This document shows, one piece after another, positions 1,639 through 7,129 of a stretch of 51,030 bases of DNA. Below the pieces are notes generated by a model. That model had not been told where the DNA came from and ran no database searches. It saw only the letters and a program-made list of their open reading frames with translations. Source of the stretch: Parabacteroides sp. (GTDB taxonomy: Bacteria > Bacteroidota > Bacteroidia > Bacteroidales > Tannerellaceae); assembly GCA_022775005.1 (NCBI GenBank), contig JALFJR010000032.1, positions 1 through 51,030 of the forward strand, read 5' to 3'. The translations under genes and the position numbers were made by a program. The first letter of the stretch is position 1; each line of letters starts with the position of its first letter.

Positions 1639-2778
1639 CTACAAAGCACCCTTGGTTGAGGGCAATTCATAGCGATAAACGTCTCGACGAATGGCCATCT
1701 TGATCGAGCGGGCCAACGCCTTGAAGATACCTTCAATCTTATGATGCTCATTAGTGCCCTCGGCATGGATATTCAAGTTCATCCGGGCAGCATCGCTCAA
1801 ACTCTTAAAAAAGTGCAAAAACATCTCGGTCGGTATATCGCCCACCTTCTCCCGTTTGAACTCCGCCTCCCATACCAACCAGGGGCGCCCGCCGAAATCC
1901 AAGGCTACCCGGCAAAGGCAATCATCCATCGGCAAGCAATAGCCATAGCGCTCTATGCCCCGCTTATCGCCCAACGCCTTAGCCAAAGCCTCTCCCAAGG
2001 CCAACGCCGTATCTTCGATCGTATGATGCTCGTCCACCTCCAGGTCGCCCTTCACGGCAATGCGCAGGTCTGTGCCCGAATGCTTACCGATCTGCTCCAG
2101 CATGTGATCAAAAAAGCCCAAGCCAGTGTGTATATCGGTCTTTCCCGTCCCATCCAAGTTCCAATCAACCAAGATGTCGGTCTCCTTGGTGGTTCGGCGC
2201 ACCTCGGCTCTACGCTCTCCAGCGAACAGGAACTCGCTGATGCGATCCCAATCGTCAGTGATCAATACGGGTCGCAAAGGAACGGCATAGGCAGCCAATG
2301 CCTGCTCGGCGGCCTCATCTTGCGGATGGAGCCAGATGCCCTTTGCCCCCAAGTTATAGGCCAACTCCATATCAGTCAGCCGATCGCCGATCACATAGCT
2401 GTTCGCCAGGTCATACTCACCCGTCAAATAACGGCCCAACATACCCAATCGAGGTTTCCGGTTGGGCGATTGCTCCTCTGGCAAGGAGGGATCGATCAAG
2501 ATGTTATCGAAGGTGATCCCCTCTCCTGCCAAGGTTTTTAGCATTAAGTTATGCGCCGGCCAAAAAGTCTCCTCGGGAAAGGAGGCCGTGCCCAATCCGT
2601 CTTGGTTGGAGACCATCACAAACTCGAAATCGAGCTGCTTGCGGACGAAATAGAGCGCACGCATCACCTTGGGCACAAAGGCCAACTTCTCTAAACTATC
2701 TAACTGGTAATCTACGGGAGGTTCCTCTACTAAGGTACCATCCCGATCAATGAAAAGGACTCGCTTCCCGGCTTTCAT
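1639..2778 (-). CDS. hisB: Bifunctional histidinol-phosphatase / imidazoleglycerol-phosphate dehydratase
   Basis: A 379-residue fusion catalysing the sixth and eighth steps of histidine synthesis. Residues 1-about 175 form a HAD phosphatase: DRDGT at 11-15 holds the nucleophile and general acid Asp, and GDRLTD at 131-136 the metal-binding motif. Residues about 190-379 form the dehydratase, with FDHML (223-227), HHTIED (251-256) and EHHKIEG (344-350) supplying the manganese-site histidines and glutamates. The zinc loop known from the E. coli phosphatase domain (Cys, His, Cys, Cys) is replaced here by D, S, S and N between 96 and 107. The start overlaps the end of hisC by four bases (ATGA type), which implies translational coupling. 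It is the last gene of hisG-D-C-B. Confidence 0.96.
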
Positions 2779-5121: not shown

Positions 5122-5973
5122 CTACAAAATCATCTTCTCAATCGGCAACACCAAGATGCCCTCTGCACCCAAAGCCTTCAACTTACCGATAATTTCCCAG
5201 AAATGGCTCTCAGCAATCACTGATTGAATAGACACCCAGTCTCCATTAGCTAACGGGGTCACTGTCGGACTCTTCATACCCGGCAACAGCTCGATAATCT
5301 CCGGCAGGCACTCCTTCGGGGCATTCAGCAACACATACTTCTTGCCCTCTGCCTCCTGAATAGCAGCAAAACGGAACAACAGTTCATCCAAAATAGCCTG
5401 CTTCTCCGCCGAAAGTCCCGGATGCGCAATCAACAATGCCTCGCAAGGAAGGACAACCTCTACCTCCTTCAGCTGGTTGCTGACCAAGGTACTGCCAGAG
5501 CTGACAATATCAAAAATCGCATCCGCCAAGCCAATGCCCGGAGCGATCTCCACAGAGCCACTGATCACGTGGATGTCTGCCTTCACCCCTTGCGCCTGCA
5601 GATAACGATTCAAGATACCGGGATAGGAGGTAGCAATCGTCTTGCCTTCAAACCATTGCACCCCGTTATACTCCTCCTCTTTCGGGATCGCCAGTGAAAG
5701 GCGACAACGGCTGAAGCCCAACCGCTTCACCAAGCGAGCCTTCTCCCCTTTCTCTACATACTCATTCTCGCCGACGATACCTACATCAGCCACGCCATTA
5801 GCTACCGACTCTGGAATATCATCGTCACGCAAGAATAACACCTCCACAGGGAAGCCCTTGGCCGCCAATAGCAAAATACGTTTTCCCTTATTCAATCTGA
5901 TGCCTGCCTCTTCGAGCAGCATCATGGTCTCGTCAAACAGACGCCCCTTGGATTGTACCGCAATTCTCAACAT
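5122..5973 (-). CDS. hisG: ATP phosphoribosyltransferase, long form
   Basis: A 283-residue enzyme for the first, committed step of histidine synthesis (ATP plus PRPP). It starts MLRIAVQSKGRLFDETM, has DDIPESVANGVADVGIVG and the PRPP-binding segment IVSSGSTLV. Residues about 210-283 form the C-terminal regulatory domain of the long form, which in other species binds histidine and makes HisZ unnecessary. It is the first gene of the operon. Its start is preceded by an attenuator leader (6013-6140), so it is likely controlled both by feedback and by His-tRNA supply. Confidence 0.96.
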   Translation of the reverse strand: MLRIAVQSKGRLFDETMMLLEEAGIRLNKGKRILLLAAKGFPVEVLFLRDDDIPESVANGVADVGIVGENEYVEKGEKARLVKRLGFSRCRLSLAIPKEEEYNGVQWFEGKTIATSYPGILNRYLQAQGVKADIHVISGSVEIAPGIGLADAIFDIVSSGSTLVSNQLKEVEVVLPCEALLIAHPGLSAEKQAILDELLFRFAAIQEAEGKKYVLLNAPKECLPEIIELLPGMKSPTVTPLANGDWVSIQSVIAESHFWEIIGKLKALGAEGILVLPIEKMIL

Positions 5974-6012
5974 ACCTATATTATATTTTATTTTCTTATT
6001 CCCTTTTCCAAT

Positions 6013-6041
6013 AAAAAAGGCTCACCGCAATTCGGCAAGCC
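6013..6041 (-). terminator. Attenuator terminator of the his operon
   Basis: On the minus strand a 9-bp stem (6033-6041 with 6019-6027, two G-T pairs, 5-nt loop) is followed at once by six T residues (6013-6018). It lies between the leader peptide and hisG, 40 bp before the hisG start, so termination here would prevent expression of the operon. Confidence 0.85.
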
Positions 6042-6091
6042 CTTTTCCTCTATCTCAAACAGTACATACATACCCATCAGCCCGCCGAACT
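6029..6091 (-). promoter_or_regulatory. Antiterminator pairing in the his leader
   Basis: On the minus strand AGTTCGGC (6084-6091), starting at the leader peptide stop codon, can pair over eight positions (one G-T) with GCCGAATT (6029-6036). That second segment is the 5' arm and loop of the terminator, so the two structures exclude each other. A ribosome stalled at the His codons leaves the first strand free; one that reaches the stop codon covers it. Confidence 0.75.
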
Positions 6092-6140
6092 ATTGCCCGT
6101 CGCAATGATGATGGAGATGTAATGTCGCTATTACTTTCAT
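6090..6140 (-). CDS. hisL: His operon leader peptide
   Basis: A 16-codon open frame encoding MKVIATLHLHHHCDGQ, with four His in five residues (8, 10, 11, 12). It begins about 14 nt after the predicted transcription start and ends before a terminator/antiterminator pair in front of hisG. This is the layout of a ribosome-mediated attenuator in which low charged His-tRNA stalls translation. The peptide itself probably has no other function. It is far too short for standard gene finders. The call rests on codon content, position and the RNA folding alternatives. Confidence 0.85.
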   Translation of the reverse strand: MKVIATLHLHHHCDGQ

Positions 6141-6160
6141 TTCGTTTTCTAATTACGCCG

Positions 6161-6190
6161 CAAAGTTACAAGAATTATTGAAACCACCAA
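6161..6190 (-). promoter_or_regulatory. Promoter of the his operon
   Basis: On the minus strand TAACTTTG (6161-6168) fits TAnnTTTG, and TTG (6188-6190) lies 19 bp upstream, matching the Bacteroides spacing. Transcription would start near 6154, just ahead of the leader peptide. Confidence 0.8.
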
Positions 6191-6220
6191 TAAAAAAAGA
6201 AAAATATCACATAATCTCGC

Positions 6221-7129
6221 TTATCCTCCCACCACAGCAGTAATACCATACGCTTGAAACTGGGCTATACAACGGGTGAGAGTCTCTTCCGAAGGGACAG
6301 CCATAGACAAATGGTGCGGATTATAGATCGTACCTCGCTTCTCATGTTTCCCTTTGCCAATGTCATGATAGGGTAAAAGGTTGACTACCTTGCGTTTCCA
6401 AGGCAGAGAGGCCAAAAAAGAAGCCGACTGATCAATATTCTCCTCATCCGCATTGACACCCTCTATCAAAGGGATGCGAATCCAAAAATCCATACCGGTC
6501 TCAGCGATCATCCGTAGGTTAGCCAAAATCCGTTCATTGGGAACACCCGTGAAGGCTTTGTGCTTGTCAGAATCCATCTGTTTCAAATCCACTAAGAACA
6601 ACTCGCAGCACGCCATGATGCGCTTTACCACCTCCTCCGACGCAAACAGCGTCGTATCAACTGCTCGATGGATACCCAATGCTCCACAACGATCCAGCAT
6701 CTCCGCTAAATCATCTGGGTGCATCAACGGTTCACCGCCACAGAAAGTGACTCCCCCTCCCGACTCATCCATGAAGAGCATCTCTTTCTCAATCTCTCGC
6801 ATAGCCTCCTCGAAAGTGTAGTCTTTCCCAGAGATCTCCATCGCCATCGCCGGGCAAACCGAAGCACAATGTCCACAAACCACACAACGAGTGGAATCAG
6901 TCACGATGCCTTGCTCTTCCGTCCAACGCAAAGCTTGATGGGGACAGGCCCGCACACAAGCCTGACAACCCATACATTTCTTACGAGTATAAAGCTTTTC
7001 CGGCCGAGATGATCCACCCTCCGGATTATGGCACCATACACAAGAGAGCGGACATCCTTTCATAAACAAGGTGATCCGGATGCCCGGCCCATCATTTATC
7101 GCATAACGTTTGATATCAAACAGCCGCAT
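6221..7129 (-). CDS. hypE: Glycyl-radical enzyme activating protein (HypD activase)
   Basis: A 302-residue radical-SAM enzyme that would install the glycyl radical on the adjacent dehydratase. The radical-SAM cluster motif is C26-x3-C30-x2-C33 within FMKGCPLSCVWCHNPEG. Two 4Fe-4S ferredoxin motifs follow (C52, 55, 58, 62 and C82, 85, 88, 92), as in activases of the larger glycyl-radical subfamilies, and GGGVTFCGGEPL is a SAM-binding glycine motif. The frame is open from 7162, but the ATG at 7129 gives the canonical N-terminus MRLFDIKRYAINDGPGIR and lies 4 bp after the stop of the enzyme gene, whereas the longer start would overlap it. The partner assignment rests on adjacency. Confidence 0.88.
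   Translation of the reverse strand: MRLFDIKRYAINDGPGIRITLFMKGCPLSCVWCHNPEGGSSRPEKLYTRKKCMGCQACVRACPHQALRWTEEQGIVTDSTRCVVCGHCASVCPAMAMEISGKDYTFEEAMREIEKEMLFMDESGGGVTFCGGEPLMHPDDLAEMLDRCGALGIHRAVDTTLFASEEVVKRIMACCELFLVDLKQMDSDKHKAFTGVPNERILANLRMIAETGMDFWIRIPLIEGVNADEENIDQSASFLASLPWKRKVVNLLPYHDIGKGKHEKRGTIYNPHHLSMAVPSEETLTRCIAQFQAYGITAVVGG

Follow-up and report, generated by a model that had tools for sequence, protein, structure and literature searches.

The stretch of DNA analysed here (51,030 nt of a Parabacteroides sp. contig, hereafter the window) carries on its minus strand, between pflA, which ends at 6221, and hisG, which starts at 5973, a promoter, a leader open reading frame (ORF) and a hairpin with a U tract in series. 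Further genes follow on the same strand that we take to be hisD, hisC and hisB, all four his names having been assigned from the translations. As judged from its translation, hisB (1639-2778, minus strand) looks like a fused two-domain gene, with a phosphatase and a dehydratase part. The features of the locus are the following.

6161-6190, minus strand: Bacteroidota-type promoter, read from the sequence as TTG (6190-6188) and TAACTTTG (6168-6161), of the form TAnnTTTG
6090-6140, minus strand: leader ORF of 16 codons, ATG at 6140, stop codon TAG at 6092-6090, predicted peptide MKVIATLHLHHHCDGQ
6058-6132, minus strand: helix 1:2, leader codons 6132-6095 with 6090-6058, from folds and the swap test described below
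6086-6099, minus strand: tip of helix 1:2, CGGGC (6099-6095) with GUUCG (6090-6086), enclosing the stop codon
6079-6090, minus strand: antiterminator strand 2, GUUCGGCGGGCU, conserved core CGGYGGGCU (6087-6079), located at the stop codon and immediately 3' of it
6030-6041, minus strand: strand 3, GGCUUGCCGAAU, conserved core GGCUUGCCG (6041-6033), common to the antiterminator 2:3 and the terminator 3:4
6013-6047, minus strand: predicted intrinsic terminator 3:4, 15-bp stem 6047-6033 with 6027-6013, 5-nt loop 6032-6028, U tract 6018-6013
5122-5973, minus strand: hisG, first gene of the putatively controlled operon, from its ORF and hisG relatives
5095-3812, 3815-2775 and 2778-1639, minus strand: hisD, hisC and fused hisB, downstream of hisG, from their ORFs

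A consensus promoter upstream of hisG had been proposed in the preliminary description of this DNA and can indeed be read as TTG followed by TAACTTTG; the latter conforms to TAnnTTTG, which we take to be the Bacteroidota promoter consensus and which 62 of 65 relatives carry at most 80 nt 5' of the leader ATG, its usual end being 20 nt before the ATG. The sigma-70 consensus is not applicable to this promoter, and a generic promoter and terminator scan listed neither it nor the window terminator; the terminator, we think, was missed because the U tract itself sits in the stem. The 16-codon leader with four His codons, also described before, stands in the sequence, its His part reading CAT CTC CAT CAT CAT with Leu as the second codon. 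The leader stop lies about 115 nt from hisG and the U-tract hairpin 39 nt 5' of it, and the RNA from 6155 to 6013 folds with a z of -3.7 against 200 shuffles. The terminator had been drawn at 6019-6041 plus the U tract; it is present and shares strand 3 with the competing helix, its stem being longer than proposed (15 bp, 6047-6033 with 6027-6013). Similarly, the suggested pairing of 6084-6091 with 6029-6036 does form, as part only of an unbroken 12-bp helix (6090-6079 with 6041-6030) in the masked fold. Its conserved core is 6087-6079 with 6041-6033, and the outer AGUU/AAUU end is not general because it needs an AA after GCCG that many relatives lack (GCCGUU is common). The locus therefore displays what is looked for in an attenuator: before hisG a predicted short ORF rich in codons for the end product (4 His codons out of 16), a predicted intrinsic terminator (6047-6013) between this ORF and the first gene and, in the folding model, an antiterminator that depends on ribosome position and excludes the terminator through the shared strand 3.

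Relatives of hisG were found in 112 of 123 genomes of the family, and the best 80 of 193 named loci were retained; the closest named hisG among the matches listed is 99% identical and belongs to a strain labelled Parabacteroides distasonis An897. Together with the window locus and five whole-genome loci that are apparently non-duplicate by contig, these 80 loci make up a near set of 86 upstream regions, in which an ORF counted as a leader if it began with ATG, was 8-26 codons long, contained close His pairs and lay within 330 nt. The ORF search identified leaders with 3-7 His codons 5' of hisG in 69 of the 86 loci, a typical peptide being MK...LHHHHHYNGQ. Sixty-five leaders were aligned, four having been dropped by hand: L055 (no TTCGG motif), L070 and L075 (wrongly chosen ORF) and L005 (unusual ORF end). 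The covariance model R1, built from the 65 aligned leaders, recovered full-length elements in 6 of the 21 loci that were not in the alignment, among them all four of those dropped by hand, so that ORF search and R1 together place the leader element in 71 of the 86 near loci. In L027 and L037 the distance from the R1 match to hisG downstream is about 0.5 and 1.1 kb. The full element was not found in 15 of the 86 loci, which include L062 and L079 with less than 170 nt of upstream sequence.

The hexamer GUUCGG is invariant in 65 of 65 rows, a figure that is overstated since the rows were partly picked on TTCGG[CT]. Five leaders (L031, L036, L048, L056 and L059) have a shifted frame, with the ORF ending inside strand 2 (GUU CGG UAG or UGA), and keep GUUCGG, which for this reason looks selected as RNA; in four of them, the exception being L036, it is preceded by CGGAC or CGGGC (CGRRC). 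From these sequences the RNA rather than the peptide looks to be what is conserved at the stop codon. Two further leaders (L017 and L042) do not have the usual stop, and, measured from the start of the TTCGG motif, their ORFs continue for another 24 and 15 nt. As regards codon usage, the 65 leaders contain 270 CAT and 51 CAC codons, and ten genes of the window 59 CAT and 39 CAC; the bias towards CAT in the leaders may reflect the involvement of the His codons in helix 1:2, or else codon choice.

The three helices are documented to different extents by this alignment. For the terminator 3:4, 95.6% of the cells in the 65 aligned leaders are paired and compensatory changes occur at 6 of 13 pairs. 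Taken together with the tip hairpin, 96.2% of the cells are paired, with double-sided changes in 32 cells versus 9.2 in shuffles, and slid versions of the two give only 32-60% pairing. The nine base pairs of the antiterminator core, CGGYGGGCU with GGCUUGCCG, form in 99.1% of 584 cells versus 29.5-52.2% when slid by 1-3 columns. None of these nine pairs shows a double-sided change, and 150 of 500 shuffles pair equally well because the columns barely vary. Alignment of the regions upstream of hisG, which the preliminary description had recommended, hence bears out the conserved His codons and compensatory changes in the terminator, the expected compensatory changes in the antiterminator 2:3 not being among its results. 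In sequence, strand 2 nearly duplicates strand 4 (CGGURAGCC).

Folds of the window and 25 leaders revealed an additional pairing, in which the leader codons generally pair with a U/G-rich stretch 3' of strand 2; most of these helices end in a CGRRC/GUUCG cap whose loop contains the stop codon. This tip is paired in 97.8% of cells, with one-sided changes only (G-U to A-U). The individual columns of helix 1:2 could not be resolved in the MAFFT alignment, from which RNAalifold recovered only the tip region and the terminator. We therefore rely on an alignment-free swap test on 49 of the 65 leaders (mutual identity at most 85%, 5000 permutations), where the leader-codon strand binds its own partner at -12.98 versus -10.91 kcal/mol for swapped partners (z -6.9, reached in 0 of 5000 permutations). 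In the same test the terminator arms score z -4.6 and strand 2 with strand 3 gives a weak signal (z -1.0, p 0.15); z is -0.06 and +2.3 for two control pairings. The permutation ignores relatedness, and the flat controls suggest that relatedness alone gives no swap signal. Two other candidate pairings were put aside. The short ATTGC/GCAAT hairpin over codons 12-16, which had been offered as a pause signal, occurs in 3 of 65 leaders and is rejected as a conserved part, the recurring early hairpin being helix 1:2 (leader codons with 6058-6083, CGRRC/GUUCG tip). AACGGGCAA, which spans codons 14-16 in many relatives, was considered as a second partner of strand 3; its conserved CGRRC is well explained by the tip hairpin, and leader codons upstream of the tip pair with strand 3 no better than swapped ones (z +2.3).

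How the position of a ribosome would affect these pairings was modelled by folding the leaders, truncated at the 3' end of strand 3, with the ribosome-covered bases masked; in keeping with the ribosome footprint, the leading edge was placed 12 nt downstream of the A-site codon's first base. Over the 65 leaders the mean probability of 2:3 is 0.08 with no ribosome (above 0.5 in 5 leaders), 0.92 with the last His codon in the A site (61 leaders above 0.5) and 0.00 with the ribosome at the stop, this zero following partly from the mask itself; an edge of 8 nt raises it to 0.26, with 4 of 65 leaders above 0.5, and edges of +10 to +14 nt give a similar picture. If it is instead the first His codon that occupies the A site, the four edges tested yield means of 0.65-0.73. 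For the window leader the corresponding values are 0.16 without ribosome, 1.00 at the last His codon and 0.00 at the stop codon, and a scan along the ORF favours 2:3 with the A site at codons 2-15 and loses it at codon 16 and the stop. Since a stall at almost any codon thus favours 2:3, the His specificity would come from the His run. The full RNA at equilibrium prefers the terminator in all three ribosome states, so that the switch would have to be kinetic and decided during transcription.

Computation thus provides the parts, their conservation, the mutually exclusive pairings and a shift of the fold with ribosome position, and we consider it very probable that the element controls the his operon as a ribosome-mediated transcription attenuator. 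RNA polymerase would start about 15 nt upstream of the leader ATG, a start placed from the promoter, with a ribosome following. When histidyl-tRNA is scarce the ribosome would stall on the His codons and block strand 1, leaving strand 2 to pair with the emerging strand 3; the terminator would then not form and hisG would be transcribed. With plentiful histidyl-tRNA the ribosome would reach the stop codon and cover strand 2 with its leading edge, 3:4 would pair and transcription would stop near 6013. If no ribosome is loaded, strand 1 would pair around and after strand 2 and 3:4 would again be free to form, so that helix 1:2 provides a state for the untranslated leader that the preliminary description had not given. 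Its central proposal, a ribosome-mediated his attenuator, is supported by the conservation, the co-variation and the ribosome-masking folds. Likewise, the expectation that stalling at His codons favours antitermination and completion of the peptide favours termination agrees with the modelled probabilities of 2:3 (0.92 versus 0.00, the stop value holding partly by construction). From this arrangement we infer that transcription and translation are coupled at the leader, that termination takes place in the cell and that the leader responds to histidine.

It could also be argued that the leader acts on translation or re-initiation, either by helping ribosomes to reach hisG or through a hairpin that hides the hisG start. 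Bacteroidota genes are often without Shine-Dalgarno sites, which may be counted in favour of such a control, and leader ORFs near a gene have been proposed to raise its translation via re-initiation in the available part of PMC4833913. Against it, the leader stop lies some 115 nt from hisG and the hairpin has a terminal U tract 39 nt before the gene. In a fold that includes the hisG start, the minimum free energy structure pairs the start weakly and the centroid leaves it unpaired, with an overall z of -1.4; this predicted lack of clear hiding of the hisG start speaks mildly against a translational switch, which we regard as very improbable.

Leaders of the same kind are not restricted to the near relatives. 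hisG is present in 196 of 393 Bacteroidales genomes, and among 80 Bacteroidales upstream regions, hand-picked from the rows listed and spread over families, 63 carry a His-rich leader ORF before hisG (60 with ATG starts only) and 60 match R1 over its full length on the leader strand at E <=1e-3. Opposite-strand R1 matches at this threshold occur in 7 of the 80 regions, mostly at the palindromic terminator end. In a sample of the phylum 171 of 198 genomes have hisG; of the 40 upstream regions taken from these other Bacteroidota, 32 contain a His-rich leader ORF, namely 25 of 25 from other orders of the same class and 7 of 15 from other classes. Allowing ATG starts only, the counts are 23 of 25 and, overall, 29 of 40. 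Leader ORFs are thus found in 95 of 120 distant loci against about 3% expected by chance, the any-start rule retrieving 45 of 1600 and 20 of 800 Markov-resampled sequences and 2 of 80 and 1 of 40 antisense ones. The compact example that had been pointed out in a Bacteroidales with a different promoter type keeps that distinction in its promoter and is not isolated, His-rich leaders standing before hisG across much of the phylum.

A breadth of this order weighs against the idea that the hairpin is merely the terminator of pflA and the His-rich frame a product of chance. pflA does end at 6221 on the same strand, where a terminator would be unremarkable, but it is separated from the terminator by an ORF and a promoter-like element, the latter also present in 62 of 65 relatives; the leader element recurs in 71 of 86 near loci and His-rich ORFs in 95 of 120 distant ones, versus about 3% by chance, and a conserved pairing connects the terminator arm with the bases at the leader stop. 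There is very little chance that this explanation holds. Hardly any credit can be given either to a function of the His-rich peptide itself, for example in metal binding, with RNA structure as a secondary matter: poly-His peptides do bind metals, but the frame shifts against the RNA in five leaders with the RNA pairing kept, and in other families peptide ends vary widely while His codons and the position before hisG stay constant.

In support of an attenuator, the pairing of strand 2 could also be followed in the distant set. A recognisable terminator is present in 92 distant leaders (86 loci). For these we took the segment that begins where the His run ends and extends to 25 nt beyond the stop codon; its binding energy with the terminator 5' arm of the same leader is -11.77 kcal/mol, versus -8.63 with swapped arms (z -12.7). 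Two controls on the 92 leaders, the sequence preceding this segment and the segment itself paired with the 3' arm, score z 0.18 and z -2.1, respectively. An earlier test, in which strand 2 was sought only after the stop in the other families, had given z -2.1, a weak signal because in many families the strand sits inside the last codons. Of the 92 leaders, 66 have z below -1; in 30 of these the strand that pairs is entirely 5' of the first post-stop base, in 20 it straddles that base and in 16 it follows it. The antiterminator strand therefore moves but remains close to the stop codon, within reach of a terminating ribosome, which would hide much of it. The 2:3 pairing is not evident in 26 of the 92 distant leaders (z not below -1), some of which, by eye L166 and L188, may pair with the loop and 3' arm instead.

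Seven of the 80 Bacteroidales regions (L166, L168, L173, L180, L183, L188 and L190) were seen by eye to contain two successive His-rich leader ORFs, each then followed by a terminator-like hairpin, and these are apparent tandem his attenuators. Both copies match R1 at E <=1.5e-5 in L168, L173, L180, L188 and L190.

When all these data are considered jointly, we lean towards a picture in which ribosome-mediated attenuation is the ancestral and standard his control across the class Bacteroidia, the antiterminator strand sliding freely round the stop codon (inside the last codons or just after them, depending on the family) provided that it is covered by a ribosome terminating at the stop codon and left free by one stalled at His codons, and in which some lineages carry two complete attenuators in tandem.

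Leader-peptide attenuation is known best from E. coli, and the enterobacterial his leader is longer and has more segments. In contrast, the window element consists of four segments with strand 2 at the stop codon, and its promoter is of a different type. With the E. coli/Salmonella his attenuator (RF00514), described in the available part of PMC9413887, it has in common the leader peptide with a run of His codons, the alternative hairpins, the intrinsic terminator and the regulatory logic. The Rfam His_leader model RF00514 did not match in the window at its gathering score, nor in 5950-6250 at E up to 10. More generally, no Rfam family reached its gathering score in the window; the best of three weak matches at E up to 10 in 5950-6250 was to Thr_leader (18.1 bits at E 0.41, the gathering score being 55), there was no T-box among the three, and in the window no T-box match reached the gathering score. 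The Firmicutes his attenuators of the B. cereus group, Peptostreptococcaceae and Erysipelotrichales belong to another phylum and can be likened to our element by description, having 3-5 His codons followed by terminator and antiterminator hairpins according to the same portion of PMC9413887. In Flavobacterium psychrophilum, of the same phylum, 'strong clues' for leader-peptide attenuation at amino-acid biosynthesis operons were reported in 2021, with no his leader named among the candidates in the available text of PMC9723704. Those portions of two further sources that were available mention leader-peptide-like sORFs in general, in a map of B. thetaiotaomicron (PMC7366714), and two RNA regulogs for Bacteroidaceae, in a survey of Rfam motifs over 255 genomes (PMC3766115). 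The literature searched, which leaves out most subscription journals, yielded no published his attenuator for Bacteroidota. The window element is ordinary in mechanism and new as a catalogued ribosome-mediated attenuator.

Its nearest catalogued kin is Bacteroid-trp (RF01692), a leader-peptide element from the same phylum that is published in PMC2864571, as far as the accessible text goes. RF01692 has no match in the window and none in 5950-6250 at E up to 10, and its codons are for Trp, those of the window for His. The same genome does contain such an element at L192 (1954-2085, minus strand), where a leader with WWW codons precedes a trpB-like gene and scores 77.3 bits with RF01692 (gathering 49); by eye its promoter is of the same kind as that of the his leader and its layout similar, and R1 matches its 3' part only (model positions 68-125, E 0.011). 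A Phe/Tyr-rich leader, MHRFSFTYYFYYFYFSKVKAGVCM, lies at L191 (251-397; G000:C61:23950-24096, plus strand) upstream of a pheA-type gene and an aminotransferase. By eye it has a terminator and a likely antiterminator; it is the second-best R1 match in the genome (E 2e-4) and gave no Rfam match at E up to 0.1. A further leader, MMNNVLHIDLVVVLLSVSR, precedes ilvD at L236 (G000:C79:8900-9900, minus strand) as a candidate branched-chain amino-acid attenuator, in which AGGAGAAAGG near the stop is complementary, by eye, to the terminator 5' arm CCUUUCUCCU. No clear pair of leader and terminator was seen by eye at L237 (G000:C2), upstream of a fused thrA-type aspartokinase-homoserine dehydrogenase gene. 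Given trp, pheA-type and ilvD leaders of similar build in the same genome, the his leader can be regarded as the histidine member of a set of amino-acid attenuators.

These findings offer a testable rule for the control of histidine synthesis in a major gut phylum whose RNA control is thinly catalogued. Furthermore, the antiterminator sliding round the stop codon represents a natural experiment on what the mechanism requires. Since a leader-peptide switch needs a ribosome close behind RNA polymerase, the leaders are ready-made probes of transcription-translation coupling in Bacteroidota, a coupling that is said to be absent in Bacillus subtilis. If a sliding attenuator is indeed ancestral and class-wide, close coupling of transcription and translation in Bacteroidota would be implied.
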